Shown here in pieces: positions 5,984 to 21,818 of a stretch of DNA of 25,173 nt. Source of the stretch: a virus. Position 1 is the first letter of the stretch. Each line of letters starts with the position of its first letter. The position numbers and the translations under genes were made by a program. The notes under the pieces are model-generated. The model saw only the letters and a list, made by a program, of their open reading frames with translations. It did no database searches and was not told the origin of the DNA. The stretch covers positions 2,206 to 27,378 of the IMG/VR virus record IMGVR_UViG_3300030106_001150. One strand, 5' to 3'.

Positions 5984-6738
5984 TAAACTCTTCCTCCTCT
6001 TTCAAGGGTTTTCATCATGTTATACATACGTTGAGCCCCTTTGTTAACATCTCCTTCACCCATGCCTCGTACAGCATCGGCTGTAAATACGAATTCGTTG
6101 TTTGATAACATCGCTGGGATATCATCTTCTTTTTCTTTTATACCAACTGGTTGTATAAATCCACCAGTATTTCTAAGATCTAGCTCCATAATACCTTCTG
6201 GATTTTGTCTCATAGGTAGTCCCTCGATACCCGCCGCTTGCATGGCGTTATCACTGGCTGTATCTCCACCTTCAGCATAACCTCCTCTACCTTGGTTATA
6301 TTCTACGACTTGGGAGTTTACAAATTTTTCTACAAGATCAGGTCTTTGTCTTAATTCAGGATTTAGATTTGTATAGTATTGTGTCAAATATGATTTTAGA
6401 GAATCAGTATCTCTAGTAATTTCTGCAACTTCTTCTTCAGTTTTACCTGCAAGAGCTCCACCAAACAATGTGCCTGCAGCACCTATAGCTAAACTCTTAG
6501 CTGCTTTACTTGTCATAAATTTAGGTAAAGTCATACCGCTCATCTTAGTACCTAACATAGGTCCTAATTTATATGCACCAAAACCTATAAGAGCAGCTTT
6601 ACCTATATCAGATGATAAAATATCACCTATACCACCTGCTACTTTTTTAACAGCTTTCTTGGCTCCCCCAGTAATCTTCTTAACTAGGCTACCTAATCCG
6701 TATAATTCTCTATTCATCTGTCCTCTAGATATTGTCAT
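5983..6738 (-). CDS. putative internal virion protein, 251 aa
   Basis: The 251-residue protein has a very basic N-terminus ('LVKKITGGAKKAVKKVAGG', 18-36). Two hydrophobic Ala/Gly stretches follow (about 46-62 and 82-98), long enough to insert in or lie on a membrane. Its C-terminal module is shared by many marine phage proteins ('DIPAMLSNNEFVFTADAVRG', 206-225, then 'GDVNKGAQRMYNMM', 229-242). It also has short Gly-rich pieces ('RGGYAEGGD'). It is first of the block before the giant protein, joined to the next gene by TAATG. A DNA-ejection or internal core role is inferred from composition and position. Confidence 0.6.
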   Translation of the reverse strand: MTISRGQMNRELYGLGSLVKKITGGAKKAVKKVAGGIGDILSSDIGKAALIGFGAYKLGPMLGTKMSGMTLPKFMTSKAAKSLAIGAAGTLFGGALAGKTEEEVAEITRDTDSLKSYLTQYYTNLNPELRQRPDLVEKFVNSQVVEYNQGRGGYAEGGDTASDNAMQAAGIEGLPMRQNPEGIMELDLRNTGGFIQPVGIKEKEDDIPAMLSNNEFVFTADAVRGMGEGDVNKGAQRMYNMMKTLERGGRV

Positions 6739-6789: not shown

Positions 6790-7662
6790 TTATGTGATTT
6801 TTTTGGGCTGGTCAACAGACTTTTCTCTTATCTCAATAGCCTTTTTAGAAGCCTGTAATTCATCCCAATATCTACCACAATATTCATACTCACCTGTATG
6901 TGATATGTGATCCATACAATATAGGTGTATTTTACCACCCATAGCGGTCCATCTTTTACAGAAACCAAAGTCTTCGCCATAATATTGTTTAGTCTTTGGA
7001 TCGTGTAAACACTCAAATAAATTATAAAAATTCTTCTTATAGTCTTCTACACCATTAACTAGTGTAGGTTGATGTATTTCTAGCTCTGGATACTTCTTAA
7101 TCATTCGCTCTATAACATCTCTTTTAATTAACATGCATCCAGTTGGGGCATGTGTTACCTCTGCTACACCGTTGTCCACCACTACTTCGTTCATACCTTC
7201 TACCTTTATAGGGTAGTGAAAGCCAGCTTTGGCAATCTCTTTTATATCTGTCATTTTGAATGCATCCATTCTTCTTTTAATTTTACCCCAATCAATATAT
7301 TTCATTGGATAAGGCACTGCTATAATGTCTTTATCTTTTTCTAACATCTTAAATATAGACTCAGCTTGGAAGTCTATATCAGAGTCAATAAATAATAAGT
7401 GTGTATGTTTATTTGGTTCGTTCATAAACTCAGATACAATTAAGTTTCTACCTTGTTGTACTAGTGATGATTTATATAAAGTAAAACTAACCAGTATGTT
7501 TCTCTGCATACATTGTTGTTGAAATTTTAGTAGGGCTTGTGTGTAGTGTATTGAACACTCACTATGTACAGGTGTACCCACCATAATCTTGATAGGGTCT
7601 TTTATTAATTTTATATCTGATTGACCTGTTACGTCAAATGTTATTGGTTCGTTATTTTCCAT
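6790..7662 (-). CDS. glycosyltransferase, GT-A fold
   Basis: The 290-residue protein has a GT-A layout. It has an N-terminal 'KIMVGTPVHSECSIHY' (25-40), 'QQGRNLIVSEFM' (69-80), the DxD-containing 'LLFIDSDIDFQ' (89-99), 'APTGCMLIKRDVIERM' (172-187), then 'YGEDFGFCKRW' (228-238) and 'HISHTGEY' (252-259) as the C-terminal active-site region. It resembles the Anp1/GT2-like enzymes common in marine phages. It overlaps the GT4-like gene by 11 bases, so two linkages may be made in sequence. A 51-base gap follows before the internal virion genes. There is no membrane segment, so it acts in the cytoplasm during infection. Confidence 0.82.
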   Translation of the reverse strand: MENNEPITFDVTGQSDIKLIKDPIKIMVGTPVHSECSIHYTQALLKFQQQCMQRNILVSFTLYKSSLVQQGRNLIVSEFMNEPNKHTHLLFIDSDIDFQAESIFKMLEKDKDIIAVPYPMKYIDWGKIKRRMDAFKMTDIKEIAKAGFHYPIKVEGMNEVVVDNGVAEVTHAPTGCMLIKRDVIERMIKKYPELEIHQPTLVNGVEDYKKNFYNLFECLHDPKTKQYYGEDFGFCKRWTAMGGKIHLYCMDHISHTGEYEYCGRYWDELQASKKAIEIREKSVDQPKKIT

Positions 7663-8584
7663 TTGTTATTCCTTTCAATAGTTGTGTCCAAGTCATAGCT
7701 ATCTTTGGCCAGCCATAATATATGTTAGCATAATTTTTTTGTCTTTCCAAATGATCTATGATTGCGGGTTGTGATAATGTTTTCTTTGCTGCCTCTATAC
7801 CTATGGCAAATTTTCTAGCTAGCATTCTATAGTCCTTACTGTACGGTATATACATAGGATACTCAGCACCTGTTTCATACAATGCACCATAGTTTGTCGT
7901 AATACAAAATAGACCAGCTGCCATAGATTCTAATAAAGATATGCAAAATGTTTCTTCCCATATACTTGGGTATACAAACATATTGTAATTTTTAAGATGT
8001 CTTTTTATATACTCGTTTGATTTATATCCGATGTAATTTACGTTTGGTAATTTTTTAGCTTGATCATATAGTTTTTGATATGTTGGATCGTTTGCTTCTG
8101 CAAAGTCTTTTCCATATACCTCACAGCTAGAGTATACGTCTAGTTCTATCATAGGATCTTTGATTAACTCCATAGCACCAAGCAATACGTTCAATCCTCT
8201 CCATGGTGTACAGTGATGTATAATTCTACACTTGTCTCTTTTCGGATGAAATGGTTTTTCTCTTGCAGGTATATTATCTATACCGTTCTTAATAACTACA
8301 CATTTGATTGTAGGCAGATCAAACATCTTTGTAAAATTTTCATAGTTCCAATGACTATTGAAAACATACCAATCATATTTACTATGATTGTTTTTATCTT
8401 TAAACCAAGGATGTATGTTTGGTTGATCCCAAGAATTTTTTTGCCACAATATATTTGGCTTATCTTTTGATAAAGGTATTTTTTCTGGTATGGAAGTTGT
8501 AATCTGTACTTTGTCTAATAATTCTTTATCTACAAATTTATGTAGATATGCCATCTGTAATTCTGTTCCGCCCATTGGCTTCAT
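7652..8584 (-). CDS. glycosyltransferase, GT4-like (GT-B fold)
   Basis: The 310-residue protein resembles GT4-type retaining glycosyltransferases. It has the N-terminal 'GGTELQ' loop (5-10), 'VFNSHWNYENF' (74-84), 'KNGIDNIP' (99-106) and 'TPWRGLNVLLGAM' (126-138). The EX7E motif is at Glu211 and Glu219 within 'WEETFCISLLESMAAGLFC'. The usual first beta strand before the GG loop is missing, so the N-terminus is trimmed relative to cellular enzymes. It starts in an ATGA with the oxygenase upstream and overlaps the next glycosyltransferase by 11 bases. It would add a sugar from a nucleotide-sugar donor to a protein or glycan; donor and acceptor are unknown. Confidence 0.83.
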   Translation of the reverse strand: MKPMGGTELQMAYLHKFVDKELLDKVQITTSIPEKIPLSKDKPNILWQKNSWDQPNIHPWFKDKNNHSKYDWYVFNSHWNYENFTKMFDLPTIKCVVIKNGIDNIPAREKPFHPKRDKCRIIHHCTPWRGLNVLLGAMELIKDPMIELDVYSSCEVYGKDFAEANDPTYQKLYDQAKKLPNVNYIGYKSNEYIKRHLKNYNMFVYPSIWEETFCISLLESMAAGLFCITTNYGALYETGAEYPMYIPYSKDYRMLARKFAIGIEAAKKTLSQPAIIDHLERQKNYANIYYGWPKIAMTWTQLLKGITNGK

Positions 8585-9030
8585 TTAAACCATCCTGCTA
8601 TTATGTATCTATCTCCACCTGAATTTCTAGTCACGCTATGTTCTATGTTAACACCATCAAAAAATACAGCTCTACCTGCTACAGGTGTTACTACAGTATT
8701 TTTACCTAAAACTAAATGGCCACCTGCAAAATCATCATTAAGAAATATAATGGTAGAATAAATAGTTTTATCTGATGCTGTGTCTTTGTGGTCATGAAAA
8801 GAAGAACCATCAGGACATCTAACGACTTGCCACCAATCTATGGTAACTCCTGTACAATCCTCACATTTCTTTTTTATTGTAGGCATGTTTTCTATATTAA
8901 CAATTTGTCTATCTGTAAAATTTTTCTTGTCATTAGACATAAAAAAATCCATTGCATCTTTTATCTCTGATCCGGTTAAAAAATTATTTACAATTTGTAT
9001 ACTATTTTTTAAATAATTTTTGTAACGCAT
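8581..9030 (-). CDS. 2-oxoglutarate/Fe(II) oxygenase, compact, 149 aa
   Basis: This 149-residue oxygenase has a complete metal site: His81 and Asp83 in 'FHDHKDT', His131 in 'NIEHSVTRN' and Arg141 in 'GGDRYIIAGW'. The strands 'YSTIIFLNDDFAGGHLVLG' (91-109) and 'PVAGRAVFFDGV' (116-127) form the P4H-type core. It is shorter than most family members, lacking a long N-terminal helical region. It ends in an ATGA overlap with a glycosyltransferase. Hydroxylation followed by glycosylation of the same target, as in collagen-type hydroxylysine chemistry, is therefore an attractive but unproven reading. The 29-base overlap with the preceding ORF leaves some doubt about the start. Confidence 0.83.
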   Translation of the reverse strand: MRYKNYLKNSIQIVNNFLTGSEIKDAMDFFMSNDKKNFTDRQIVNIENMPTIKKKCEDCTGVTIDWWQVVRCPDGSSFHDHKDTASDKTIYSTIIFLNDDFAGGHLVLGKNTVVTPVAGRAVFFDGVNIEHSVTRNSGGDRYIIAGWFK

Positions 9031-9211
9031 TCATACCTTTTGGTGATACGTGTACAGTTGTATCCTGTTGGACATGGTCTGTTGTTGTATCTGTATTTGG
9101 ATCATCAATATCCGCTTTCATTTCTACTTCGTCTTTATATACTCTACCAGTAAACTTGTTTTTACAAACAGTTACGGTTGTACAATTTATTTTTAGTATA
9201 TCATTATCCAT
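9002..9211 (-). CDS. small unknown protein, 69 aa
   Basis: The 69-residue product has a short strand-rich N-terminus with two cysteines ('INCTTVTVCKNKFTG', 8-22), an acidic middle ('KADIDDPNTDTTTDHVQQD') and a basic helix at the end ('SPKGMNALQKLFKK'). I do not recognise its family. It overlaps the preceding gene by eight bases and the following oxygenase by 29, in keeping with the packed coupling of the region. Such small late genes in marine phages are usually unnamed. Confidence 0.5.
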   Translation of the reverse strand: MDNDILKINCTTVTVCKNKFTGRVYKDEVEMKADIDDPNTDTTTDHVQQDTTVHVSPKGMNALQKLFKK

Positions 9212-9554
9212 TTTCTTGCGATCTGTCTATTAAAGCATAACTTATCAGGCCTTGTATCTTACTACTTCCTGTGGCTGCTTGCACAGTTATAGCATCACCT
9301 GCTTCCAAGTTCAAGCCTTGAGGTGAAGCATTTACTTGTGATTTAGCTCCTACTTCATCTCGAAAAAATTCATACTCAGTGCTAGCATCTGATGAGTCAA
9401 CAAAATTCATATTTACCACAATGCCTGATGATGCATCGTTGTTTGCAACATATATACTTTTAACTATAATTATTGCATTAGTAGGGCAAGTAAGCACCGT
9501 AGTTTTGCTTGTGTCTGTTTGTTTAAAAGCTTGATTTTTATATTGTATAGTCAT
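9204..9554 (-). CDS. small beta-rich virion protein, 116 aa
   Basis: The 116-residue protein starts MTIQYKNQAFKQTDTSKTTV and continues with alternating strands 'AIIIVKSIYVAN', 'IVVNMNFVDSSD' and 'GDAITVQAATGSSKIQGLIS'. This is the plan of a common small virion protein in marine phages, in which a beta-sandwich binds the head or tail surface. No catalytic residues stand out. It starts at a TAATG and overlaps the next ORF by eight bases. Its general plan is like the 89-residue product near the other end of the window. A decoration or tail-surface role is inferred. Confidence 0.55.
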   Translation of the reverse strand: MTIQYKNQAFKQTDTSKTTVLTCPTNAIIIVKSIYVANNDASSGIVVNMNFVDSSDASTEYEFFRDEVGAKSQVNASPQGLNLEAGDAITVQAATGSSKIQGLISYALIDRSQENG

Positions 9555-9718
9555 TAGTTCATAAAATAGTTGAAAGCATCTTGCTCGTCTTTTAAATCTT
9601 TTTGAAAAGCAAAATTAAGTTGATTTTTCATACCATCAAGAGACGCAAGAATTTGTCTTTGATTTTCTACTTCGTATTCAGTTTTTGGTTCTGGTATAAA
9701 TATAGTTATCTTTGCCAT
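9554..9718 (-). CDS. small protein, 54 aa
   Basis: A 54-codon ORF exactly fills the space between the nozzle gene and the next virion gene. It begins MAKITIFIPEPKTEYEVENQ and ends DEQDAFNYFMN. Both ends are TAATG overlaps with its neighbours, which strongly supports a real, translationally coupled gene despite its size. It is a short strand plus a long amphipathic helix (about residues 15-50), with no cysteines and no membrane segment. It could be a tail-completion or chaperone-like peptide; the function is unknown. Confidence 0.65.
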   Translation of the reverse strand: MAKITIFIPEPKTEYEVENQRQILASLDGMKNQLNFAFQKDLKDEQDAFNYFMN

Positions 9719-11637
9719 TATCTTCTACCGTCTGGTTGTGCATCTATTCTTAAAGTTCCGTATCTCCAAGTTTCGCCTGCAGCTTCGTTTTCTATTTTAA
9801 TTGCTATCAACCTACCTCTAGCTCTTGTATCAACTTTGTCTGTTGTAGACGTGATAGTAAAAGGACCAAGGGGTGAGCTTCTCTTTGCATTGTTTGGATA
9901 GTCATTTACAAACAATGTTATTTTAGAATTACCAGTAATGTATTTGTAATCAGGTACAAATCTTCTGATAGATGTGAATATTTCACCATCATCAATGTCT
10001 AAGTCTCCTGATGTTATGAAAGCTTCTATTGCAGTTGTTGTGCCATTAGCAACTTGGTCAGTGCCATCTTCATGAGAGTAGTATGTTGTTGCACCATATC
10101 TATTTGTAATTCCTTGTATTGGAAAGTTTGGTGTGCCAGTCGCTGAGTATTCTGTTGCATAAGGGTTATCAAACACATAAGCGTCAACGTATGTTGTTCT
10201 AGCTAATGATCCAGTCGTCCACACATTCTCTGCGTAATTATATGTAACAACTCTGTCAATTTGTGTAGATCCGTTTTTAGGATAGAACCACATAACTTCA
10301 TCGTATAAAGAATTGTATCCTGCTGAAATAGTTTGATTAGAACCAAAATTAATTCCAAGATTAGTGCCGTCAGTTGTAAACACAAAGTCTTCAACTAAGC
10401 AAGGTAAAGATTTAACTGTACCATCGTACACAAAGAAACCGCCTGCATCACCCATCCAATACACAGCACCATCTGCGTACACGACTGCGTTTTGTCCAAT
10501 ACATCCGCAACCTGTACCAACTTGTCTAACACTAAATGTAAAAGGTGGTCCAACAAATTGTATAACGTAAGCTGCTCTATCTGTAAGAACTAGTGTGTAG
10601 TCTTTTGCATTTACAGCCGCTCGTATCTCGCTACCTGCGTCGAGTCTAAAAGTTCCAGCAGTGTTTGTTGCTGTTGGTTGATATTGATTTAAATTTTCTT
10701 GATCAGAGAATCTGATAAACATAGGATCTTGTGTACCTGTGTCACCGATTGTCTCTTCTGTTCCTAAATGAAATAAGTGTCTATCTCTATCAGATACAAG
10801 TGTCATGATAGAAGCCGTTGGATTCGCACCCGTCTGAAATCCTGACGTAGTAACTGACGCTCTAACTGTTCTAGCACCAGCAGCTCCTGCGTTCCAAGTA
10901 AAAGTTTTTCCGTTGTGTATAGTTGCAACTAGAACTTCACCAAAGTTATCGAGTGACCAGATACCTGGATCTAACGTTACATCAGATACAGTTCTTGCTG
11001 TGCCCCATGTAGAGTTACCCCAAAGGTATGTGCCCCAACCATAACCTGTTGTTTGGAAAGTCGGTCCAACGTTTTCGTACGGATTAATAGTTACACCTCC
11101 CGCTGCAGTCATACCAGATCCAGACTCATTTGCTGACATCGTGATTGTAAATGTGTTGGTTGCAGCGCTTATAACTTCATAAGTCTTTGTTGTAAAATCT
11201 GTAACAGAGTATCCGGTAGCTCCACCTCCAGGTAAAGTTACACTAGAGAAAGTGACGTATCTACCTACAGCTAGATTGTGAGAAGTCTTGTTTATCGTTA
11301 CTGTTGCAGATCCGTTTGTAGATGTAAAAGTACCACCTGTTATGGCGGTTGCCAAAGGTGTTATGTCATAGAAGTCTTCACCATAGTATAAGAACAAACC
11401 TTGAGATGTACCAATAGCAGTGTACTTCTCTCCAGCCAAAGAGGTAAAAGCATGTTGTGCTCTAGCAACACCAGGTAGTTCTTTTTGAGAAACAGTAAGC
11501 TGTTTCCAGCCACCTATCTTTTCTGGTAGTCCTGTTCTAAATCTAACATTATCACCATCTATCCATTGACCTTCAGCTCCTGATGCCGTGGCCTGTTTGT
11601 TGAATCCTGGTGCAAACTGTAATTTCTTTAATGGCAT
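9718..11637 (-). CDS. tail nozzle / DNA-stabilisation protein, P22 gp10-like
   Basis: The 639-residue protein starts MPLKKLQFAPGFNKQAT with 'QWIDGDNVRFRTGLPEKIGG' (24-43). Its central 'GCGCIGQNAVVYADGAVYWM' (376-395) and 'GGFFVYDG' (399-406) match the podoviral gp10-type family, whose members close the portal channel and form the tail hub. It is beta-rich throughout, with propeller-like strand spacing. Residues about 100-185 look like an inserted Gly/Thr-rich domain, followed by 'GYGWGTYLWGNSTWG' (198-212), the same WG core found in the 561-residue fibre. Its stop and the next start share a TAATG. The decoration operon separates it from the adaptors it would dock on. Confidence 0.7.
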   Translation of the reverse strand: MPLKKLQFAPGFNKQATASGAEGQWIDGDNVRFRTGLPEKIGGWKQLTVSQKELPGVARAQHAFTSLAGEKYTAIGTSQGLFLYYGEDFYDITPLATAITGGTFTSTNGSATVTINKTSHNLAVGRYVTFSSVTLPGGGATGYSVTDFTTKTYEVISAATNTFTITMSANESGSGMTAAGGVTINPYENVGPTFQTTGYGWGTYLWGNSTWGTARTVSDVTLDPGIWSLDNFGEVLVATIHNGKTFTWNAGAAGARTVRASVTTSGFQTGANPTASIMTLVSDRDRHLFHLGTEETIGDTGTQDPMFIRFSDQENLNQYQPTATNTAGTFRLDAGSEIRAAVNAKDYTLVLTDRAAYVIQFVGPPFTFSVRQVGTGCGCIGQNAVVYADGAVYWMGDAGGFFVYDGTVKSLPCLVEDFVFTTDGTNLGINFGSNQTISAGYNSLYDEVMWFYPKNGSTQIDRVVTYNYAENVWTTGSLARTTYVDAYVFDNPYATEYSATGTPNFPIQGITNRYGATTYYSHEDGTDQVANGTTTAIEAFITSGDLDIDDGEIFTSIRRFVPDYKYITGNSKITLFVNDYPNNAKRSSPLGPFTITSTTDKVDTRARGRLIAIKIENEAAGETWRYGTLRIDAQPDGRR

Positions 11638-11653
11638 AATCCTAGTAGTATAT

Positions 11654-12193
11654 TCATTTTATTTTAGGTCCGCAACCGAATAAAGTCAGGGTTTTTCTTT
11701 GTCCTGAGAGGATTGGCTGAACCTTGTGATTCAAGAAAGACTTGATAATCAACACTGAACCAGGCTCAGATAATTCTGGCACTTCATATTCTACACCGTT
11801 GTATATCATAAATTGTCCTCCTGTAAATTTTTCTGTTGATAGATTTACTAGCACTGTTAGTTTCATATCCCACACATCTGATCTTGAAGTATCAACATGA
11901 TAACCATATTCACCATGTGGATCGTAAATATTATATAGACATATATCGTGATCGTTGAAAGGATAGAGATCGTATCCAAAATGTCTGTCATTTACCCAGA
12001 CAATAAAAGACTCTAAGTCTTTAATAATATGTTTAATTTTATTACGATGAACCAATAGTGTTCTAGTCTTCTTTTTACCTTCTGCTTGATTTTTGTTTTC
12101 TTCTATTTGAAAATGTTCTTGTTCTATCGTGTCACATAAATAACCAATAGTATCTCTGTTAAAAAATTTTTTATTATAAAAGCTATCTAGCAT
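11654..12193 (-). CDS. 2-oxoglutarate/Fe(II) oxygenase, 179 aa
   Basis: The 179-residue protein has an intact active site: His99 and Asp101 in 'YGYHVDTSRSD', His156 in 'FLNHKVQP' and Arg166 in 'SGQRKTLTLFGCG'. The strand 'KLTVLVNLSTEKFTGGQFMI' (111-130) is the P4H-type core. The basic N-terminal region includes 'NQAEGKKKTRTLLVHR' (35-50). It closes the decoration operon: its start overlaps the nucleotidyltransferase by 11 bases and its stop is 16 bases before the nozzle-like gene. It differs enough from the other oxygenases in the window to suggest a different target. The substrate is unknown. Confidence 0.85.
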   Translation of the reverse strand: MLDSFYNKKFFNRDTIGYLCDTIEQEHFQIEENKNQAEGKKKTRTLLVHRNKIKHIIKDLESFIVWVNDRHFGYDLYPFNDHDICLYNIYDPHGEYGYHVDTSRSDVWDMKLTVLVNLSTEKFTGGQFMIYNGVEYEVPELSEPGSVLIIKSFLNHKVQPILSGQRKTLTLFGCGPKIK

Positions 12194-12521
12194 TTCTAAT
12201 CTTTGTAGCAGAGATTGCTTCTACTTCTGCAGGTAATTCTATTTTGTCTATAGAATAACCAACATCTCTACCGTAACAAATGTTTGTAATATTAGGGACA
12301 CGTACAACTTCAAACATACCTCTGTATTCTCTTAGTCGTCTAATAATTTTTCTTCTTACAGTACCGTAGCCATACGGATTATTTTCTCCATCACAGTCTC
12401 TAACCATGATAATAACTTGTCCTGTCTTTTCTAACGTCTTTTTAAAAAGTTCAAAATGACCTTCGTGAAAAGGTTGAAACCTTCCTAACATTTGTGCTGT
12501 AGGTTTTTTATAATTTATCAC
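12183..12521 (-). CDS. HIGH-superfamily nucleotidyltransferase, possibly sulfate-activating
   Basis: The 112-residue protein has the nucleotidyltransferase signature 'GRFQPFHEGH' (13-22) and the C-terminal 'ISATKIR' (103-109). This places it with NadM, cytidylyltransferases and ATP sulfurylases. Between them is 'ICYGRDVGY' (81-89), reminiscent of the GRDxAG block of ATP sulfurylase. It is shorter than any cellular ATP sulfurylase and lacks the flanking domains. It overlaps the APS-kinase-like gene by 14 bases and the next oxygenase gene by 11. It may be an adenylyl- or cytidylyl-transferase for a decorating group, or a minimal sulfate adenylyltransferase. The superfamily is secure; the substrate is not. 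Confidence 0.72.
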   Translation of the reverse strand: MINYKKPTAQMLGRFQPFHEGHFELFKKTLEKTGQVIIMVRDCDGENNPYGYGTVRRKIIRRLREYRGMFEVVRVPNITNICYGRDVGYSIDKIELPAEVEAISATKIRNAR

Positions 12522-12888
12522 GAATCTCCTTTATTACATCTTGATAGTCAAAATTTTTAATTTCAAAAGTACAGTGACTTGGTTTTTCAAACATTTGATT
12601 TGTATCATCAAATCTACCTTTCTTAATTGTATTCATCCAAACCTTTACATCATACTCATGCCTGTCGTCATCAAACGGACAAATAAAATCTACAATCGCA
12701 TGACCATCTACAAGAGAAGATAAACATCCCATTCTCTGTGCTTGTCTTGTTCTACCTGTCGGAGAGAAGTCCCAATCGTTAAACATCTTTCTAACTTCAT
12801 CAGCATTAAAATAAGCATAACCTGCAGACAACTGTCTTGCAAAGGTTGTCTTACCTGATCCCGGCAGTCCGAATACTAATATTCTCAT
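12508..12888 (-). CDS. adenylylsulfate (APS) kinase-like P-loop protein
   Basis: The 126-residue P-loop protein has Walker A 'GLPGSGKT' (7-14), 'FNADEVRKMFNDWDFSPTGR' (27-46) in the position of the APS kinase DGDxxR...DLGFS block, and 'FICPFDDDR' (68-76) in place of FISPFxxDR. The end has 'GRFDDTNQMFEKP' (91-103), comparable to the substrate lid of APS kinases. It is much shorter than cellular CysC (about 200 residues). Related proteins recur in marine phages next to a small nucleotidyltransferase, as here. APS kinase makes PAPS from APS and ATP, which the adjacent sulfotransferase would use. Kinase activity on APS is inferred; another small nucleotide or sugar could be the substrate. Confidence 0.68.
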   Translation of the reverse strand: MRILVFGLPGSGKTTFARQLSAGYAYFNADEVRKMFNDWDFSPTGRTRQAQRMGCLSSLVDGHAIVDFICPFDDDRHEYDVKVWMNTIKKGRFDDTNQMFEKPSHCTFEIKNFDYQDVIKEIRDKL

Positions 12889-13606
12889 ATCGTTCTATAA
12901 TCCTTCTGGGCAAATAATCTTCAACCTTATAATTTATTTTGTTTATTTTGTCTACCCTGATTGAATGAAAAGGTCCTTCTACATGCTCATCATCGTATTG
13001 CATATCACCAAAACTAAACTGTTTTGTAAGAGATAGCTTTTCTGGTTTTAGTTGTAAGAATTGAAATATCTTATCTATTTGTTTTTGTGGATTTTGTACA
13101 AGTTCATTGTAAGTTATAACAATGTGCTGCTCTTCCTCATCTATCAAATTATTGATAGACCATATGTTTTTACCCAGTATACCATGATCAGGATTCATAA
13201 GAGAATCACAAAAAGAATCTATATCACTTTTGTCTGTCTTTGCTTTTACAAATGAGGCAAGACATTCTAGTATCGGTCTAACTAAAATTACAAACTTTCT
13301 ATCTGGAAATATACATTTTAATAATTCTAAATTACTTGGTGTACCCCATGGTGCTTTTTCTAATATATGAGCAGGTATGTCTTTGTAATAATTTTCAAAA
13401 GTATTTAGTAAGATATTCTCTAGACCTCTAAAGTATGGAAAGTTTTTAAATACGCTAGACTCTCTTGTTTTCAAGATATTAATAACAACATCAGGTAAAA
13501 TACTATTAGGTGTCATTTGTATTTGTTTGCTTTGATTTATCATTGAACCTAAAAAGGTTGCACCTGTTCTAGGTAGTGCACATAGAAAACTAAACTTCGT
13601 AGACAT
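12851..13606 (-). CDS. sulfotransferase (PAPS-dependent family)
   Basis: The 251-residue protein has the two PAPS-binding signatures of sulfotransferases. The 5'-phosphosulfate loop is 'LPRTGATFLGSMI' (11-23). The 3'-phosphate motif is in 'KFVILVRPILECLASF' (104-119), with Arg110 and Ser118. Further family-like pieces are 'LEKAPWGTP' (82-90) and 'ITYNELVQNPQKQIDKIFQF' (164-183). It would move sulfate from PAPS to a hydroxyl or amine on a glycan, protein or small molecule. No signal peptide or membrane anchor was seen, so it acts in the host cytoplasm. Its last 38 bases overlap the APS-kinase-like gene, which could supply PAPS. The acceptor is unknown. Confidence 0.8.
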   Translation of the reverse strand: MSTKFSFLCALPRTGATFLGSMINQSKQIQMTPNSILPDVVINILKTRESSVFKNFPYFRGLENILLNTFENYYKDIPAHILEKAPWGTPSNLELLKCIFPDRKFVILVRPILECLASFVKAKTDKSDIDSFCDSLMNPDHGILGKNIWSINNLIDEEEQHIVITYNELVQNPQKQIDKIFQFLQLKPEKLSLTKQFSFGDMQYDDEHVEGPFHSIRVDKINKINYKVEDYLPRRIIERYENISIRTAGIR

Positions 13607-14099
13607 ATTTAAACTCCGATGATCTTTTAGTAAATTCTAGAAACTCTTTGTTTTCAACAATAGGGTATCCAGCTAAATTAAAAGATGTGTTTAATAAGAT
13701 AGGCACATCTGTTTCTGTATAGAAAGCTGCAATCAAATCATACAAAGGACCTTTGTTAATAGTTTGTACTCTGCATGTACCATCAACGTGTACAATAGAC
13801 GGCACTTCGTTTACAGCTCTTAATTTTGCTTTTACAGCGAAAGACATATATGGACTTGTCTTTAATGATCCCATATCAAAATATGTATGTGCGTGTTCTT
13901 GTAATACTGTGCCAGCTAATGGTCGCCACCATTCTCTTCTTTTAAATTTATTTACAATCTCTTTTGCCTCTGGGTTTCTAGGATCAAACAAAATAGATCT
14001 GTTGCCTAGAGCTCTAGGTCCCCATTCACTTTTACCATGAAAGATAACCAAAGGTTTTTGATCTATTAAAATTTTCAAAGCTTCAAGAATATCTGTCAT
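13590..14099 (-). CDS. carbamoyltransferase C-terminal (YrdC-like) half
   Basis: The 169-residue product matches the C-terminal domain of O-carbamoyltransferases. It has 'EWGPRALGNRSIL' (25-37), 'FKRREWWRPLAG' (52-63), 'PSIVHVDGTCRVQTI' (100-114) and 'PILLNTSFNLAGYPIV' (133-148). In TobZ this half makes carbamoyl-AMP from ATP and carbamoyl phosphate and hands it to the N-terminal half. All its conserved blocks are present, so the split falls at the domain boundary with no obvious loss. The ATG lies within the last codons of the N-terminal ORF, and its own end overlaps the sulfotransferase start by 17 bases. The two halves could assemble as a heterodimer. Confidence 0.85.
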   Translation of the reverse strand: MTDILEALKILIDQKPLVIFHGKSEWGPRALGNRSILFDPRNPEAKEIVNKFKRREWWRPLAGTVLQEHAHTYFDMGSLKTSPYMSFAVKAKLRAVNEVPSIVHVDGTCRVQTINKGPLYDLIAAFYTETDVPILLNTSFNLAGYPIVENKEFLEFTKRSSEFKYVYEV

Positions 14100-15009
14100 A
14101 ATATATCGCTGCTCCTATCGCTGTGCCTGCATCATGTGGTATTGGATCTATGAAAAAATTTAAGTCTGGATACTTTTCTACGTATTTAAAATTGTTAGAA
14201 CAATTTAGAAAATAACCACCAGACATAATTATATTTTTACTTTTTGCTTTCTCAATTAATCTACACGTATCATAAAATGTTTTCTCTTGTACTTCTTTTG
14301 CTATTTTTACTTTTTCATAATCTAATGGATATTTATTAGCGTCATGTGCGTACGAAGATAGACCCATCAACTTACCAGCATCATTAGCATCTTTGAAACC
14401 TGCAGCTATGGTTGCTTCTTCAAAAGCCATACCACCAACACACTGTGTAGAAAATTTATTTTTAAATCCATTTAGATACATAGATATTTCAGTTTCAGAA
14501 CCAAATAATTTTTTACGTAATCTATATGCGCTGCTGTGTTTATATGTAGGTATAATTTTTTTATTATTAATTTCATAGACAGATTCAACTTCTTGATATG
14601 GAATATAAAATTTACAAGAACCACCACCATCAATAACAATAGCTGTAGCTTCCTCAAACTTTGAAAAATAAAAAGCTGTGATAGCATGATACAAATGATG
14701 TTCTTTTATATCAAAGAAATATGGAGGATGATCTAATTGCTTCTGTAGTTTGTTTATGATGTCTTGATCTGTAATAGGACAATAGTCATAGTTTCTACCA
14801 AACGAAGCGTAACAAACCATATCTGGTCTAAAGTCAATATGTTGTAATATGGATTGATAGATCTCTGTATCAGGTGTAGGCATATCATTTTTAATTAATG
14901 TAAATCTTTCTTCATTATAAAAATCTATTACTTTGCCATTACTATAAATACAAATAGATGGGTTGTGAGAAATGTTTATACCTAGGATTTTTTTATTATT
15001 ATGTTCCAT
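14083..15009 (-). CDS. carbamoyltransferase N-terminal (Kae1-like) half
   Basis: The 308-residue product matches the N-terminal domain of TobZ/NodU/CmcH-type O-carbamoyltransferases. It starts 'KKILGINISHNPSICIY' (6-22). The metal-site histidines are in 'EHHLYHA' (His104/His108), the 'IDGGG' loop is at 126-130 with Asp127, then 'GKLMGLSSYAHD' (212-223), 'MSGGYFLNCSNN' (262-273) and 'HDAGTAIGAA' (292-301) with Asp293. This half transfers the carbamoyl group from carbamoyl-AMP to a hydroxyl on sugar-like acceptors. Single-chain family members continue into a YrdC-like domain. Here the ORF stops (TGA) just after 'GAAIYYDRYS', and the C-terminal half is a separate ORF in the +1 frame with a 17-base overlap. 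Confidence 0.88.
   Translation of the reverse strand: MEHNNKKILGINISHNPSICIYSNGKVIDFYNEERFTLIKNDMPTPDTEIYQSILQHIDFRPDMVCYASFGRNYDYCPITDQDIINKLQKQLDHPPYFFDIKEHHLYHAITAFYFSKFEEATAIVIDGGGSCKFYIPYQEVESVYEINNKKIIPTYKHSSAYRLRKKLFGSETEISMYLNGFKNKFSTQCVGGMAFEEATIAAGFKDANDAGKLMGLSSYAHDANKYPLDYEKVKIAKEVQEKTFYDTCRLIEKAKSKNIIMSGGYFLNCSNNFKYVEKYPDLNFFIDPIPHDAGTAIGAAIYYDRYS
14112..14116 (-). promoter_or_regulatory. embedded ribosome binding site for the carbamoyltransferase C-terminal ORF
   Basis: AGGAG on the minus strand lies 12 bases before the ATG at 14099. It is built from codons for the conserved Ile-Gly-Ala of the upstream domain (ATA GGA GCA). The spacing is a little long but usable. It supports independent initiation of the second ORF rather than a random frameshift. 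Confidence 0.45.
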
Positions 15010-15311
15010 TCTAATTTCTCAAGTAAATCATCAAGATTAAACTCTTTGTCTTTCTTTTCTTCAATGTATTTATGTAGCTCTTCAATATCAATTATCACCC
15101 ATTGTTTGTTAAATTCAAATACCATTTTGTCTGCTTTAGTATCTGTCTTACCTGTCTGAAATAAATGATTATCAGACTCTCGTTTCATGTCTCTAACATC
15201 AAACTTATAAAAAGCATTCTTGTCTTTTAAGATACCTGCAATATTCCAAGATGTTTTTTCTTTTGGATATTCTACCGCTGTTAGATATTTAGCGAACCTA
15301 GAAACAATCAT
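14982..15311 (-). CDS. unknown small protein, 109 aa
   Basis: I do not recognise a functional family. The 109-residue protein is highly charged. It has 'RFAKYLTAVEYPKEKTSWN' near the N-terminus, a short strand 'KMVFEFNKQWVIIDIEEL' (62-79), then a Lys/Glu-rich helical end ('HKYIEEKKDKEFNLDDLLEK', 80-99). It is soluble, with no metal-binding motif. It starts in a TAATG with the upstream oxygenase and its last 28 bases overlap the carbamoyltransferase N-terminal ORF, so it is expressed with the decoration genes. A small partner or adaptor protein is possible, from position only. Confidence 0.6.
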   Translation of the reverse strand: MIVSRFAKYLTAVEYPKEKTSWNIAGILKDKNAFYKFDVRDMKRESDNHLFQTGKTDTKADKMVFEFNKQWVIIDIEELHKYIEEKKDKEFNLDDLLEKLEWNIIIKKS

Positions 15312-15967
15312 TAAAACTTAGGAAGTTTCATATAAGCAGGCGTACCTAAACAAGGTCTTGTATCATTCTCTCTTATCTTATTTTCTTTTGTGTCTGTATT
15401 ATAATGTAAAAATACTTGAGCACATTCTTCACCCGTAAATTTTTCTCTCCAATGCTCTAGTTGAACACCATCGTAAATTAACATGTCGCCTTGTTTTAAA
15501 TTTACTGCTATGCCTTTTGCATCACTTGACCATGTTGCACCTGATCCTGGTCCACCAACGTTTTCGTTTGGACTTAAAAAGATAGGCCATTCATCACCAC
15601 CTAAAAACAAAGTAGTAGATACTTCACAACTTGGTCTGTCTTTATGTCTTTTTAATTCATCTCCAGTTTTATAAAGTCTTGTGTAAGCATATGTAGGTAT
15701 TAGTTTTAACCCTGTTTCTTTTTCCATAACAGGTAATAATTTTAATAATAAAGTTTCCATAGCGATGTCACCATATTTACTCCAAGTTCCATCAACTTGT
15801 TGATCATTGAATACACCCCACGTTGCATCAAAATCTGATATTTGTTTTTTATCACGTAAAGTTTTAGCTGCTGCTTTAGCTATTAATAAATAATTAAAAC
15901 AAAACAAAGCTAGTTCTTTTGATACAACTTTCTTTGCTACACAGTATTTATTTTTTTTAAAACTCAT
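15311..15967 (-). CDS. 2-oxoglutarate/Fe(II) oxygenase, second type, 218 aa
   Basis: This 218-residue oxygenase is not closely similar to its neighbour. The jelly-roll core has 'YTRLYKTGDELKRHKDRPSC' (95-114), giving His108 and Asp110. It continues with a strand ending 'TTLFLGGDEWPIF', a 'LKQGDMLIYDG' strand (157-167) and the distal His172 in 'LEHWREKF', followed by 'AQVFLHY'. The 2-oxoglutarate-binding Arg or Lys is not at the usual spacing, so cosubstrate binding is less certain than for the 201-residue protein. An ATGA overlap with the gene before and a TAATG with the gene after suggest coupled translation. A hydroxylase role is likely; the substrate is unknown. Confidence 0.8.
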   Translation of the reverse strand: MSFKKNKYCVAKKVVSKELALFCFNYLLIAKAAAKTLRDKKQISDFDATWGVFNDQQVDGTWSKYGDIAMETLLLKLLPVMEKETGLKLIPTYAYTRLYKTGDELKRHKDRPSCEVSTTLFLGGDEWPIFLSPNENVGGPGSGATWSSDAKGIAVNLKQGDMLIYDGVQLEHWREKFTGEECAQVFLHYNTDTKENKIRENDTRPCLGTPAYMKLPKF

Positions 15968-16569
15968 CTATAAGGGTGCCCACAGTTCCATATAACTAAA
16001 GATAATCTTGTTCCTCTTAACACAGGTCTTACTCTGTGCCACACAAAACTAGGAAACACTACTATAGATCCTTTAGGTAATATCTCTCTACATATATGTC
16101 TGTTGTTAGGTTGCAGAGGATCATTGTTTTTAAAATCAAATTCTAGTTCACCACCTGTATAATCTTTTGGGTCAGATAAAGAAACAGTAACAGATAGTTT
16201 TCTTATCTTACCATTTTTATACGGTTCTTCTTTTGAATCTGCGTGCCAGTCATAAAATTGACCTGGCTCATATACTGTAAACTGACAAGACTCTGACTCA
16301 TCAAATTGAAAATTCCAACCAGCATTATTATTTGCATTGGTAACATAAGGTATAAATAAATTATACAACCAAGGATAGTTCATCCAAGCTATTTTTGAAT
16401 CTCTTTTCTTTTTTATAGATTTTAATTCTTCTTCAGTTGCTGTGTCAGGATTAGTGTCTCCAGTAAGACCCCTCATACCTTTTTCTTTCATTGCTGTAGC
16501 TATAACTTGATTGCAAAGTCTTTCAGGGATTGCTCCAGGAAAATACCAAAAATAGTTTTTTAATAACAT
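15964..16569 (-). CDS. 2-oxoglutarate/Fe(II) oxygenase (prolyl-4-hydroxylase-like, PKHD type)
   Basis: The 201-residue protein carries a complete catalytic set: His109 and Asp111 in 'YDWHADS', His178 in 'PSFVWHRVRPV', and Arg188 in 'RGTRLSLVIW' for 2-oxoglutarate. The strand 'RKLSVTVSLSDPKDYTGGEL' (123-142) is a hallmark of PKHD-type hydroxylases. Members hydroxylate protein or small-molecule substrates using O2, 2-oxoglutarate and Fe(II). The N-terminal helical region (1-80) is typical, and the length is close to family norms. It is linked by TAATG to the gene before and by an ATGA overlap to the next oxygenase. The substrate is unknown; a virion protein or glycan is plausible from context. 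Confidence 0.88.
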   Translation of the reverse strand: MLLKNYFWYFPGAIPERLCNQVIATAMKEKGMRGLTGDTNPDTATEEELKSIKKKRDSKIAWMNYPWLYNLFIPYVTNANNNAGWNFQFDESESCQFTVYEPGQFYDWHADSKEEPYKNGKIRKLSVTVSLSDPKDYTGGELEFDFKNNDPLQPNNRHICREILPKGSIVVFPSFVWHRVRPVLRGTRLSLVIWNCGHPYR

Positions 16570-17120
16570 TACACCTCCTTAAAGGTTGTAATCAAAAATG
16601 TGTTAGGGTGTTTTGATTCGTTACCTGCAATAAAGAATCTTTGAGTTGTAGGAAATAATACAAAGTCACCTGTATTCAAAGGTTGAAACCAAGTTTTATC
16701 TTTATGTTTATTGTTATCATATTCAATAACAACTTGAGCAGAATCAGGGAGTACATCTACGGCGTACACCATAACGTAATCAGGTTCGTTCTTAAGATCA
16801 TTCTCTTCAAGAACTTTTCTAGAAAAAGATTGTTCAGCGTGTTGTATAATATTACCAAAAGATAATTCTTCAATTAAAACTAAATTGTGTTTCATCTCTG
16901 CATATTCTTTTACCCACTCATGAATGTAGCCCATGTCTTTTGAATATTTTAATTTATAATCAAAAAATCTATAACTAGTTGGTGTGTCAGCAACAGTGTT
17001 GTGTTGAAGTTGTGCTTCTAATATATCAGCTTTTATTTGAGCGTTGTTTTGCTCGTAACCTTTGGGTCTTTTGACAGTGTCAGTGAACAGAGCCACTTCT
17101 GTTAATACTTTCTTTTTCAT
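16569..17120 (-). CDS. double-stranded beta-helix protein, degenerate oxygenase-like, 183 aa
   Basis: This 183-residue protein resembles small marine-phage jelly-roll proteins of the 2-oxoglutarate oxygenase type. The C-terminal half runs 'YVMVYAVDVLPDSAQVVIEY' (115-134), then 'PLNTGDFVLFPTTQRFFIAG' (147-166). The usual iron ligands are not evident: the only HxD/E candidate is His94-Ala-Glu96, and where a distal His would follow the 'GDFVLFPTTQ' strand there is Arg-Phe-Phe. It may bind a partner or substrate without catalysis, or coordinate metal differently. It is first in the decoration operon, after a promoter-like site. Its TAA stop overlaps the next ATG (TAATG). The family call is tentative. 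Confidence 0.5.
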   Translation of the reverse strand: MKKKVLTEVALFTDTVKRPKGYEQNNAQIKADILEAQLQHNTVADTPTSYRFFDYKLKYSKDMGYIHEWVKEYAEMKHNLVLIEELSFGNIIQHAEQSFSRKVLEENDLKNEPDYVMVYAVDVLPDSAQVVIEYDNNKHKDKTWFQPLNTGDFVLFPTTQRFFIAGNESKHPNTFLITTFKEV

Positions 17121-17126
17121 CTTTCT

Positions 17127-17155
17127 ATTATAAACTATTTATCTTTTTCTTCCAA
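17127..17155 (-). promoter_or_regulatory. sigma70-like promoter for the decoration operon, possibly leaderless
   Basis: The minus strand shows a perfect TATAAT (17132-17127) exactly 17 bases after TTGGAA (17155-17150), which is 4/6 to the -35 consensus. The -10 box ends only six bases before the ATG at 17120, so the expected start of transcription falls at or next to the start codon. This marks the boundary between the fibre genes and the modification genes. Confidence 0.45.
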
Positions 17156-17618
17156 GTAGTTCGTCTTTATCCGGTGCTGCATCATATTCTGCTTGTGTAA
17201 TAGGTGTAGCATACTCTAATTTTTCCCACTGTAATGTGCCTTCGTCCCATCTCCAGTAGTGTGTTAATAATTCATCATCTGTTAAATCTGGTAATAAACC
17301 TGCAGGTGATTCCCAATCATAAGTTGTAGTATTTTTTACCCATGAAGCAGGATTGTCTCCTTTGATTGGCCAGAACACTTGCTCTGATGGATCCCATTCG
17401 TATCCTATTCCAGCGTAGTTACCTCTAAAAGGTGAACCACCATTTAATGTTCCATTTCTGTGTGTATTTTTATCAGTCATAATCCACTGTGCAGCAGGCC
17501 ATCCAGTTGTTTCTTCTAAATGCGCTTGTCCAGCAGCTTCATCTGTAGCGATATTATCTTCTACGTGATCTACTCTTAATACAATATTATTCTCGTCTAT
17601 TTTTGCAAACTCAGCCAT
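17139..17618 (-). CDS. fibre-block accessory protein, 159 aa
   Basis: This is a 159-residue acidic protein. It begins MAEFAKIDENNIVLRVDHVED and contains 'RGNYAGIGYEWDPSEQVFW' (about 65-83), a motif seen in a common small protein of marine phages encoded near tail fibres. The second half is Trp-rich ('YDWESP', 'HYWRWDEGTLQWEKLEY'). No enzyme signature was found. The Shine-Dalgarno is poor (AGG at most), and the start is separated from the glycine-rich tip gene by two bases, so it may rely on translational coupling. It could be a fibre assembly factor or a small fibre component; neither is proven. Confidence 0.55.
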   Translation of the reverse strand: MAEFAKIDENNIVLRVDHVEDNIATDEAAGQAHLEETTGWPAAQWIMTDKNTHRNGTLNGGSPFRGNYAGIGYEWDPSEQVFWPIKGDNPASWVKNTTTYDWESPAGLLPDLTDDELLTHYWRWDEGTLQWEKLEYATPITQAEYDAAPDKDELLGRKR

Positions 17619-17620
17619 AA

Positions 17621-18496
17621 TTATTTAAACCTATATCTTATTAGTACAAGACCACTTGGTCCACCAGATCCGCCGTATGCTTCATCAGTTCCACCAGTTG
17701 GGTTATTCGGAGCATTACCATCTCCTGAACCACCTTGTCCAGATCCGCCAGCAAAATATCTTAAGTTTGGTGCGTTAGGAGTTCCTGAACCCGGTACTCC
17801 GATGTTTGAAATACCGCCAGCAATTTCAGTTCCAGCCCCCGCAGCTCCGCCGCCGCCGCCCGATCCGATGCAGCCGCCTCCGCCATTCCACGCGCCAGGT
17901 TGTCCTTGAGGTGGGTTAGTTGGAGGGTTGTTTCCAGTTCCGCCGCCAGCACCAGTGTTAGGAGGGTATCCCCCGCCTGATCCACCGCAACCGCCAGGTT
18001 TTCCTGGGTTACTTTTTACAGGTTGAGTATAGTGACCTACGCCACCGCCTCCGCCACCTGCAGCAGATATTGTTGAAAATGAAGATGCGTTTCCATTGTT
18101 ACCTTGCGTATTTTGTGAAGGTTGTGGAGATCCAGTTGCACCAATTGAAATTGGATATGTTGCAACGGACATTGGTAAAGCGCCATTTGGATTTGCTAAT
18201 GGACTTCCTGTCCAAGCTGCAGGGTTAGGAACAGATTCTCTGAATCCTCCTGCTGCCGTACCTCTGTTTGAAGGTGCGTTTCCGCCAGCTCCACCTGTAA
18301 CCAAATAATCAGCGTAAGCTAATGTTGGGTCTGGTGCTTTAGAAACAATAAAGTTACCTGGACTCGTAAAGACGTGAATTTTGTAATCCCCGACTTCAGA
18401 TACACTTCCTCCGTTTGCTTCCATGTATGGACTAGATCCAGCTGTTAAACCGAAACCTTTTCCAGATCCTGCTGCGAATGATCCTAGTATTGGCAT
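17621..18496 (-). CDS. glycine-rich tail-tip protein
   Basis: The 291-residue protein opens with MPILGSFAAGSGKGFG. Residues 36-70 ('GDYKIHVFTSPGNFIVS', 'DYLVTGGAGG') and the end ('YGGSGGPSGLVLIRYRF', 274-290) match the two ends of the glycine-rich tail-fibre domain family. Between them, 145-280 is mostly Gly, Pro, Asn and Ser, with runs of up to six Gly. Such domains can fold as packed polyglycine-II helices and act as receptor-binding tips in some phages. Two isolated Cys (170, 209) sit in the Gly-rich part. The DNA here is clearly more G+C rich than the surrounding genes because of GGN codons. It lies directly after the fibre gene. Adhesin function is inferred. Confidence 0.65.
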   Translation of the reverse strand: MPILGSFAAGSGKGFGLTAGSSPYMEANGGSVSEVGDYKIHVFTSPGNFIVSKAPDPTLAYADYLVTGGAGGNAPSNRGTAAGGFRESVPNPAAWTGSPLANPNGALPMSVATYPISIGATGSPQPSQNTQGNNGNASSFSTISAAGGGGGGVGHYTQPVKSNPGKPGGCGGSGGGYPPNTGAGGGTGNNPPTNPPQGQPGAWNGGGGCIGSGGGGGAAGAGTEIAGGISNIGVPGSGTPNAPNLRYFAGGSGQGGSGDGNAPNNPTGGTDEAYGGSGGPSGLVLIRYRFK

Positions 18497-18514
18497 CTTT
18501 CTCCTATCCTCCTA

Positions 18515-19585: not shown

Positions 19586-19605
19586 AATTTTTATATCCTC
19601 TTTTG

Positions 19606-19634
19606 TTTTTATTAAAATTTAACAATAGTGTCAA
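19606..19634 (-). promoter_or_regulatory. possible promoter before the second fibre gene
   Basis: In the 77-base gap after the 561-residue gene, the minus strand has a perfect TTGACA (19634-19629). A weak TAAAAA -10 (19611-19606) follows after 17 bases. An AGAGG site then leads to the ATG at 19585. The gap is almost pure A/T, so the -10 match carries little weight. Confidence 0.3.
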
Positions 19635-19662
19635 ATATTAATTTTGATTAAATTTTGCTGTT

Positions 19663-21348: not shown

Positions 21349-21364
21349 AGGAGTTACCTCCTAT
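21347..21364 (-). promoter_or_regulatory. RBS/start-codon hairpin with GUAA tetraloop
   Basis: The mRNA reads AUAGGAG-GUAA-CUCCUAU, a perfect 7-bp stem closed by a GNRA-type tetraloop. The 5' arm (21364-21358) carries the AGGAG Shine-Dalgarno and the 3' arm (21353-21347) contains the AU of the start codon at 21348. Translation initiation of the 561-residue fibre gene would need this hairpin opened. The stop codon of the gene upstream is at 21366-21364, right at the base of the stem, so terminating ribosomes could unfold it. Confidence 0.7.
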
Positions 21365-21807: not shown

Positions 21808-21818
21808 GTTTTATCTCC

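Follow-up and report, generated by a model that had tools for sequence, protein, structure and literature searches.

A candidate adhesin-tailoring gene island in the tail region of an HTVC023P-type pelagiphage

Gene content of the late region

The virus record IMGVR_UViG_3300030106_001150 comprises 27,378 bases, of which bases 2206-27378 (25,173 nucleotides, hereafter the window) were analysed here. The late region of the window harbours a cassette of enzyme genes (17120 to 11654) between the gene of a glycine-rich tail-tip protein, the predicted adhesin, and the tail nozzle gene. It encodes 2-oxoglutarate (2OG)/Fe(II) oxygenases, the two halves of a carbamoyltransferase, a sulfotransferase (ST), an APS-kinase-like protein (KIN; APS, adenosine 5'-phosphosulfate) and a nucleotidyltransferase (NT); a further oxygenase gene and two predicted glycosyltransferase genes lie beyond the nozzle gene (Table 1). 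In related phages the gene content of this cassette follows the type of the neighbouring adhesin.

The nozzle protein shares 68% identity with that of Pelagibacter phage HTVC027P and 61% with that of HTVC023P, and the order of the late genes is common to the window and both phages. Based on this nozzle homology and the syntenic late region the virus is assigned to the HTVC023P-type pelagiphages, which are phages of SAR11. All open reading frames (ORFs) named in the initial annotation, which had been made from the sequence of the window, were recovered at their coordinates on the minus strand. The mostly overlapping gene junctions described there were also found, each of the nine junctions from oxD to oxC overlapping by 1-38 nt.

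Table 1. Predicted genes of the tail region and their coordinates in the window (DSBH, double-stranded beta-helix; pLDDT, predicted local distance difference test; PAPS, 3'-phosphoadenosine 5'-phosphosulfate).
Gene	Predicted product	Position	Strand	Basis of assignment
Gly-rich protein	Gly-rich protein of the tail tip (adhesin), 291 aa, likely candidate for the substrate	17621..18496	-	PF21722 Gly_rich_2 1.2e-8
g159	conserved companion of Gly-rich adhesin	17139..17618	-	phrog_7759 3.7e-22
oxD	conserved pseudo-2OG-oxygenase, 183 aa	16569..17120	-	DSBH fold in model (pLDDT 87)
oxA	2OG-Fe(II) oxygenase, 201 aa	15964..16569	-	PF13640 3.3e-16; H109-A-D111...H178, Arg188
oxB	2OG-oxygenase-fold enzyme, 218 aa	15311..15967	-	phrog_2954 5.1e-47; H108-K-D110...H172
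u109	small conserved cassette protein	14982..15311	-	no match in Pfam or PHROG
ctN	N-terminal (Kae1-like) half of O-carbamoyltransferase	14083..15009	-	PF02543 1.1e-18; TobZ alignment; HHLYHA kept
ctC	C-terminal (YrdC-like) half of O-carbamoyltransferase	13590..14099	-	PF16861 3.4e-48; PDB 7xb6 1.2e-30; GPRALGNRS kept
ST	PAPS-type sulfotransferase, 251 aa	12851..13606	-	PF13469 2.8e-12; PRTGAT and VRPILECLASF motifs
KIN	APS-kinase-like P-loop kinase, 126 aa	12508..12888	-	PF01583 above cut-off
NT	NadM-like protein of the adenylyltransferase superfamily, 112 aa, GTG start	12183..12521	-	PF01467 2.4e-6; PDB 1f9a 2.9e-10
oxC	2OG-Fe(II) oxygenase, 179 aa	11654..12193	-	PF13640 1.7e-8; H99-V-D101...H156, Arg166
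nozzle	tail nozzle/stabilization protein, far slot boundary	9718..11637	-	phrog_3287 1.1e-86
oxE	2OG-Fe(II) oxygenase, 149 aa	8581..9030	-	PF13640 2e-13; H81-K-D83...H131, Arg141
gt1	family-1-type glycosyltransferase	7652..8584	-	PF00534 1.4e-16
gt2	probable second glycosyltransferase	6790..7662	-	phrog_1574 2.4e-34

Enzyme content of the collar-to-nozzle slot and adhesin class

Relatives were sampled with the nozzle as anchor, and their ORFs were called by a simple longest-ORF rule and labelled with profiles, separate ones being used for the KIN and NT domains. The gene-neighbourhood comparison proposed in the initial annotation as a check on the co-occurrence of the enzyme families revealed a recurrent island in the tail region: 78 of the 84 complete collar-to-nozzle slots contain at least one 2OG oxygenase gene, and oxygenases are encoded in this slot of HTVC023P and HTVC027P as well. 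Since many relatives possess oxygenases without any capping enzyme, capping is optional.

Whatever the degree of nozzle relatedness, the enzyme sets track the adhesin class, and they do so more closely than they track the relatedness of the viruses. At a nozzle identity of at least 0.8 the mean Jaccard index of the enzyme sets (strand ignored) was 0.53 for loci of the same adhesin class versus 0.22 for loci of different classes, and a restricted permutation on strand-aware enzyme sets gave p=5e-4. In relatives with an adhesin of the Gly-rich (GLY) class the cassette is mostly found on the same strand, and in the class characterised by a 190-aa collar-domain adhesin 67 of the 68 enzymes are encoded on the opposite strand, the inverted cassettes remaining in the same slot. 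The location on the strand of the fibre and nozzle genes, which had been pointed out for the window, is thus correct there but not general, and in view of the inverted islands of this one adhesin class, strand agreement was discarded as evidence of linkage. A supposedly "enzyme-free" adhesin class (GLY310) was likewise discarded after clustering had identified its 224-aa gene as another oxygenase.

Two small genes accompany the Gly-rich adhesin class. The gene g159 is positioned between adhesin and cassette in the relatives, u109 recurs in their cassettes, often as the final gene before the nozzle, and both recur together with this class. In some SAR11-type phages the tail slot contains one or two genes for flavin-dependent tryptophan halogenases (L174:5723-7195 and 7694-8857; also in L117, L122, L124, L127, L132 and L173), with profile matches of 3.4e-83 and 4e-64 among them. 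A class of Kelch-like adhesins (L112:359-3615 and relatives) carries repeated EEYDGSSW-type motifs with tyrosines in acidic surroundings, and ST and KIN were detected in four of four complete slots of this class.

Oxygenases and a conserved pseudo-oxygenase

Four intact 2OG oxygenases had been predicted in the window. Complete HxD...H iron triads are indeed present in all four enzymes with this fold (oxA, oxB, oxC and oxE), but oxB does not possess the usual arginine. In oxA, oxC and oxE, which score above the cut-off of the Pfam family 2OG-FeII_Oxy_3, the triad is combined with the C-terminal arginine. The residues H109 and H178 of oxA are retained in 159 of 159 relatives, and the profile of the oxA family matches PKHD hydroxylases and prolyl 4-hydroxylases in the PDB. 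The gene oxE represents an optional insert ahead of the glycosyltransferase pair, where an oxygenase was detected in six of the 25 loci with gt1.

The oxB protein has no match in Pfam, and its PHROG matches are limited to families labelled "ferrochelatase" (phrog_2954 and phrog_3531). The HxD motif is invariant in 114 relatives, and the distal histidine is found in all 112 that have this column. The AlphaFold model (pLDDT 91.9) yielded prolyl 4-hydroxylases as top Foldseek matches (6.6e-8), so that model and alignment together indicate both the DSBH fold and the iron triad. A ferrochelatase fold was rejected, since all of the 50 Foldseek matches listed are 2OG/Fe(II)-type enzymes and no ferrochelatase is among them. 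The position of the usual 2OG-anchoring Arg/Lys is occupied by Gln184 in 112 of 112 relatives having the column, and Arg111 and Arg174 are conserved at other positions. Because of this replacement the handling of the co-substrate may differ from that of the usual oxygenases.

According to Wittmers et al. (2022, PMC9599517), "ferrochelatase" genes of HTVC023P-type pelagiphages are always located next to 2OG oxygenase genes. The genes of HTVC023P and 023Pt_psg01 bearing this label match oxB. The published "ferrochelatase" of the oxB family is accordingly predicted by the structural model to have a 2OG-oxygenase fold, and the "ferrochelatases" of that article are read here as oxB-type oxygenases, directly so in the case of the HTVC023P and 023Pt_psg01 genes.

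The degenerate relative noted in the window, oxD, lacks the HxD motif, and the distal histidine is replaced by Tyr or Phe in the alignment of its relatives. As the model of the protein matches 2OG oxygenases in Foldseek from about 1e-6, oxD is a conserved pseudo-oxygenase that has the fold but not the iron ligands.

A split O-carbamoyltransferase

Both halves of the two-part carbamoyltransferase recognised in the initial annotation exceed their Pfam cut-offs (Carbam_trans_N and Carbam_trans_C), contain the HHxxHA and GPRALGNRS motifs and align to TobZ and its relatives. Both catalytic domains and their motifs are shared with the O-carbamoyltransferases TobZ and NodU, but the single polypeptide typical of these enzymes is replaced by two separate proteins in the window. 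Separate ORFs were also found in most relatives, in varying order, and a fused gene in six loci. Since the halves are separate in most relatives and occur in either order, the split results neither from sequencing error nor from decay; a frameshift or sequencing error was ruled out for both the ctN/ctC and the KIN/NT split, as L003 (90-95% identical) and distant relatives are split alike. The genes ctN and ctC thus encode a stable two-protein arrangement. The reversed order ctC-ctN is found in L171, L172 and L183, and two N-terminal halves flank one C-terminal half in L017 and L018.

Sulfotransferase, KIN and NT in phages

The ST protein exceeds the cut-offs of PF13469 and PF00685 and contains motifs of the 5'-phosphosulfate-binding and 3'-phosphate-binding type (PRTGAT and RP...CLASF). 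The best PDB match of its family profile is to protein-tyrosine sulfotransferases (5e-11), TPST1/2 being the closest solved structures at low similarity. The assignment of KIN to the APS_kinase family is marginal (22.8 bits, cut-off 21.1), with the P-loop and the DxxR...F...R motifs present, and its profile matches APS kinases in the PDB, no nicotinamide riboside (NR) kinase being among the matches. Gln49 of KIN occupies what we take to be the position of an asparagine in APS kinases. The nucleotidyltransferase proposed earlier is present in the form of NT, which exceeds the CTP_transf_like cut-off, contains the motifs GRFQPFHxGH and IS(A/G)TxIR and is closest to NadM-type nicotinamide mononucleotide (NMN) adenylyltransferases. 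Its partner, however, is KIN and not the glycosyltransferases, because KIN-NT fusions occur in other phages and in genomes of the SAR11 family. The phages with a fusion include Stenotrophomonas phages, and in many phage loci KIN is kept where no NT was recognised. An identification of NT as ATP sulfurylase found no support in the profile comparison (see below).

KIN was detected in more than 100 viral contigs, and 80 loci were examined. In this sample, chosen by KIN itself, the partnership of sulfotransferase and APS-kinase-like protein suggested for the window was strongly confirmed: a sulfotransferase gene lies within six genes of KIN in 77 of 80 loci, with ST directly upstream in 56, elsewhere within six genes in 10, and a different probable sulfotransferase family in 11. 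Of the three exceptions, two are cut off by the end of the contig, and the third (L186) is found in another phage context. All 26 complete slots with KIN encode a sulfotransferase (Fisher 8e-18). In four complete slots a sulfotransferase was called but KIN was not, and one of them (L129) contains KIN according to tblastn. Hence KIN implies a sulfotransferase while a sulfotransferase does not require KIN, a pattern expected for a donor-supply enzyme. In the nozzle-anchored sample neither KIN nor ST was called in any locus, which illustrates the rarity of sulfotransferases elsewhere. The sulfotransferase partners are diverse (mostly 25-60% identical), the KIN proteins being 56-93% identical.

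The second sulfotransferase-like family (a cluster of 11, with L125:6471-7040, L136:8972-9541 and relatives) is short and divergent and stands in for the usual ST in KIN loci. It was called from its position and its motifs (IPKNGSTS and REPxDRLISG), which are PF03567-like; its Pfam score of 16.7 bits falls short of the cut-off (22), and a search of the PDB gave no match. In L186, which belongs to another phage, a KIN-NT pair (5414-6128) directly follows a DNA polymerase gene, and no sulfotransferase gene is nearby.

KIN and NT in SAR11 host genomes

Genomes of SAR11 were located with a 16S probe sequence from the literature, the matches being titled Pelagibacteraceae. A scan of genome contigs with KIN peptide patterns gave no match, and the whole-genome profile search then identified the pair in SAR11: KIN was found in 38 of 98 SAR11-family genomes versus one of 348 genomes from the rest of the phylum. 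About nine of these ORFs have a length that fits a KIN-NT fusion. NT overlaps or is fused to most of the KIN genes inspected, and none was seen beside KIN in L340 and L342. Chromosomal pairs of this kind, overlapping or fused, were observed in L313-L319, L341 and L343-L346, some of them adjoining methanethiol-oxidase-like and ergothioneine-type genes (named by inspection).

In three genomes (G014, G018 and G021) KIN and aprB share a strand and are 2.3-4.0 kb apart, an arrangement for which a simple placement estimate, uncorrected for the relatedness of the three genomes, gives 1e-4. The order in G018 is a KIN-NT fusion (L343:5971-6747), three genes and aprM-aprB-aprA, where aprB was assigned by PF12139 and the other apr names by inspection. 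Without control for completeness and phylogeny, aprB is more frequent in genomes with KIN (28/38) than in others (23/60; p=9e-4), and KIN is more frequent in genomes with a sulfotransferase (18/27) than in those without (20/71; p=9e-4). Sat was detected in five of 98 SAR11-family genomes and a strong CysD in four of 60. In strain HTCC1062 cysDNCHIJ and sat are absent and AprBA, which makes APS, is present (PMC5069961).

The simplest joint reading of the SAR11 data is a conversion of APS to PAPS by KIN. Due to its linkage to sulfotransferase genes, its likeness to APS kinases and its aprBA neighbours in SAR11, KIN most likely makes PAPS from APS for the sulfotransferase.

The glycosyltransferase pair

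Two glycosyltransferases had been predicted in the block behind the nozzle gene. The assignment is clear for gt1, and that of gt2 relies on weak matches (Anp1 0.019; phage glycosyltransferase PHROG 0.0018). The initial annotation had joined this block and the cassette into one system, which the comparison does not bear out: gt1 is located downstream of the nozzle in 25 of 30 loci, and because of this near-core distribution the two glycosyltransferases are regarded as a function of their own, almost universal in the group and distinct from the variable, adhesin-linked cassette.

Comparison with described systems

Each enzyme kind is already known from marine phages (PMC9599517; PMC3037559; PMC10580990). 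The system of Wittmers et al. (2022) concerns the same phage group and the same kinds of genes as the window, but neither a carbamoyltransferase nor a sulfotransferase is named in the text, and no link to the adhesin is drawn in the sections considered. T4-like cyanophages possess genes for 2OG oxygenases, "ferrochelatases", PrnA halogenases and carbamoyltransferases (Sullivan et al. 2010, PMC3037559), thus the same enzyme kinds as the cassette, although they represent another virus lineage and their carbamoyltransferase is annotated as full-length. In the cyanophage S-SSM7 (L354) carbamoyltransferases, 2OG oxygenases, a tryptophan halogenase and heptose-pathway genes are encoded between tail-fibre and minor-coat genes (12732-22297); this unrelated myovirus differs from the window in its annotated heptose-pathway genes and in that KIN is not annotated. 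In P-SSM2 nol is located in the replication region.

The bifunctional PAPS synthase resembles the arrangement in the window, since an APS-kinase-type kinase stands beside a nucleotidyltransferase or is fused N-terminally to it, near sulfotransferases. It differs in that the NT of the window is NadM-like without a significant ATP sulfurylase match and that KIN is short. In a limited search of the open-access literature, subscription journals lying outside it, no earlier account was encountered of an adhesin-linked island, of a KIN-NT/sulfotransferase module, of the KIN-NT link to SAR11 and aprBA or of the split carbamoyltransferase.

Possible function of the cassette

On balance the cassette appears to be an exchangeable tail-tip tailoring island whose products modify the adjacent adhesin or its glycan. 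The adhesin is probably the substrate, judging from the position of the genes and from the likeness of their products to peptide hydroxylases and tyrosine sulfotransferases; the chemistry is proposed by analogy to the enzyme families. The enzymes would act on the neighbouring adhesin, or on a glycan attached to it, during late gene expression. The 2OG oxygenases may hydroxylate side chains as do the prolyl-hydroxylase-like enzymes, the split carbamoyltransferase would cap hydroxyl groups, and ST would transfer sulfate from PAPS. Linkage and family strongly suggest that the PAPS would be provided by phosphorylation of APS by KIN, with NT as a partner (by fusion and adjacency) that might make or recycle APS. 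As most SAR11 bacteria are without canonical sulfate activation but contain APS derived from AprBA, the phage would contribute the missing donor step. More tentatively, SAR11 phages may tailor their tip adhesins post-translationally with exchangeable sets of hydroxylases, halogenases, sulfotransferases and carbamoyltransferases resembling those of ribosomally synthesised and post-translationally modified peptides (RiPPs), PAPS being supplied through a hitherto unrecognised KIN-NT pair shared with the host.

Several observations weigh against the tailoring of the adhesin. The physical adjacency of cassette and adhesin could, by joint exchange alone, produce the correlation with adhesin class, and the counts overstate independence as the contigs were not dereplicated. 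Some complete slots are devoid of any recognisable enzyme gene, and when the adhesins were searched for sulfation sites of the acidic-tyrosine type, no clear enrichment was seen. Genes for carbamoyltransferases and for KIN-NT are also found outside the slot (L010, L186, DLP_6, Suzuki and P-SSM2). The hhalign probability of NT against ATP sulfurylase, represented by three Sat proteins of the SAR11 family, is 2.4%, and they share short motifs and nothing more.

Alternatively, the enzymes may modify the host surface (lipopolysaccharide or other glycans) for receptor masking or superinfection exclusion, the adjacency to the adhesin reflecting co-evolution of receptor and adhesin. Glycans are common substrates of O-carbamoyltransferases and sulfotransferases, the glycosyltransferase pair is close by and the comparable island of S-SSM7 includes heptose-pathway genes. 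This scenario nevertheless seems less likely given that the genes are part of the late region, that the oxygenases resemble peptidyl-prolyl hydroxylases and ST protein-tyrosine sulfotransferases, and that the cassettes were not seen to encode any proteins for export or of membranes.

Somewhat less likely still is an activation of another small molecule by KIN-NT (a nucleoside or sugar phosphate, or in NAD salvage), with the closeness to ST arising from joint use on one product. The similarity of NT to NMN adenylyltransferases would fit this role, a kinase combined with a nucleotidyltransferase is a common architecture for activation, and no sulfotransferase was recognised near the KIN-NT genes of the Stenotrophomonas phages and L186. 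It is, however, difficult to reconcile with the alignment of KIN to APS kinases in place of NR kinases, the sulfotransferase in every complete KIN slot, the aprB neighbours in three SAR11-family genomes and the many phage KIN loci without a recognised NT.

The published interpretation for cyanophages and for the pairs of 2OG oxygenase and "ferrochelatase", namely that such genes are auxiliary metabolic genes changing the iron, 2-oxoglutarate or sulfur metabolism of the host (PMC9599517; PMC3037559), appears improbable for the cassette. Iron and sulfur genes of the host are up-regulated on infection by HTVC027P (PMC12753301), but the "ferrochelatase" has the predicted fold of a 2OG oxygenase, and a gene content that tracks the adhesin type is not predicted by a metabolic role. 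DNA hypermodification, which the initial annotation had kept as its main alternative while seeing no methyltransferase, is highly improbable. In its favour, a 2OG oxygenase combined with a carbamoyltransferase and a glycosyltransferase is reminiscent of the chemistry by which bases are known to be modified, the match of oxB to Tet-like proteins is very weak (E 0.058), and part of the HTVC023P group carries thymidine-hypermodification genes near PolA (PMC9599517). The latter genes, however, are situated in the replication region outside the slot, the cassette tracks the adhesin type, and the scanned proteins of the window included no methyltransferase, thymidylate-synthase-like protein or base kinase, the record being an incomplete fragment without the early region.

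Implications for pelagiphages and their hosts

The predicted fold of oxB corrects the "ferrochelatase" annotation behind published interpretations. For the host, KIN-NT suggests a route to PAPS in the absence of standard sulfate activation and a possible fate of the APS made by AprBA, which poses a testable question on the sulfur metabolism of SAR11. If the tip adhesins of these phages are modified, their host range would hinge on covalent modifications that are invisible in the adhesin sequence, and a swap of the cassette would change adhesin and chemistry together.

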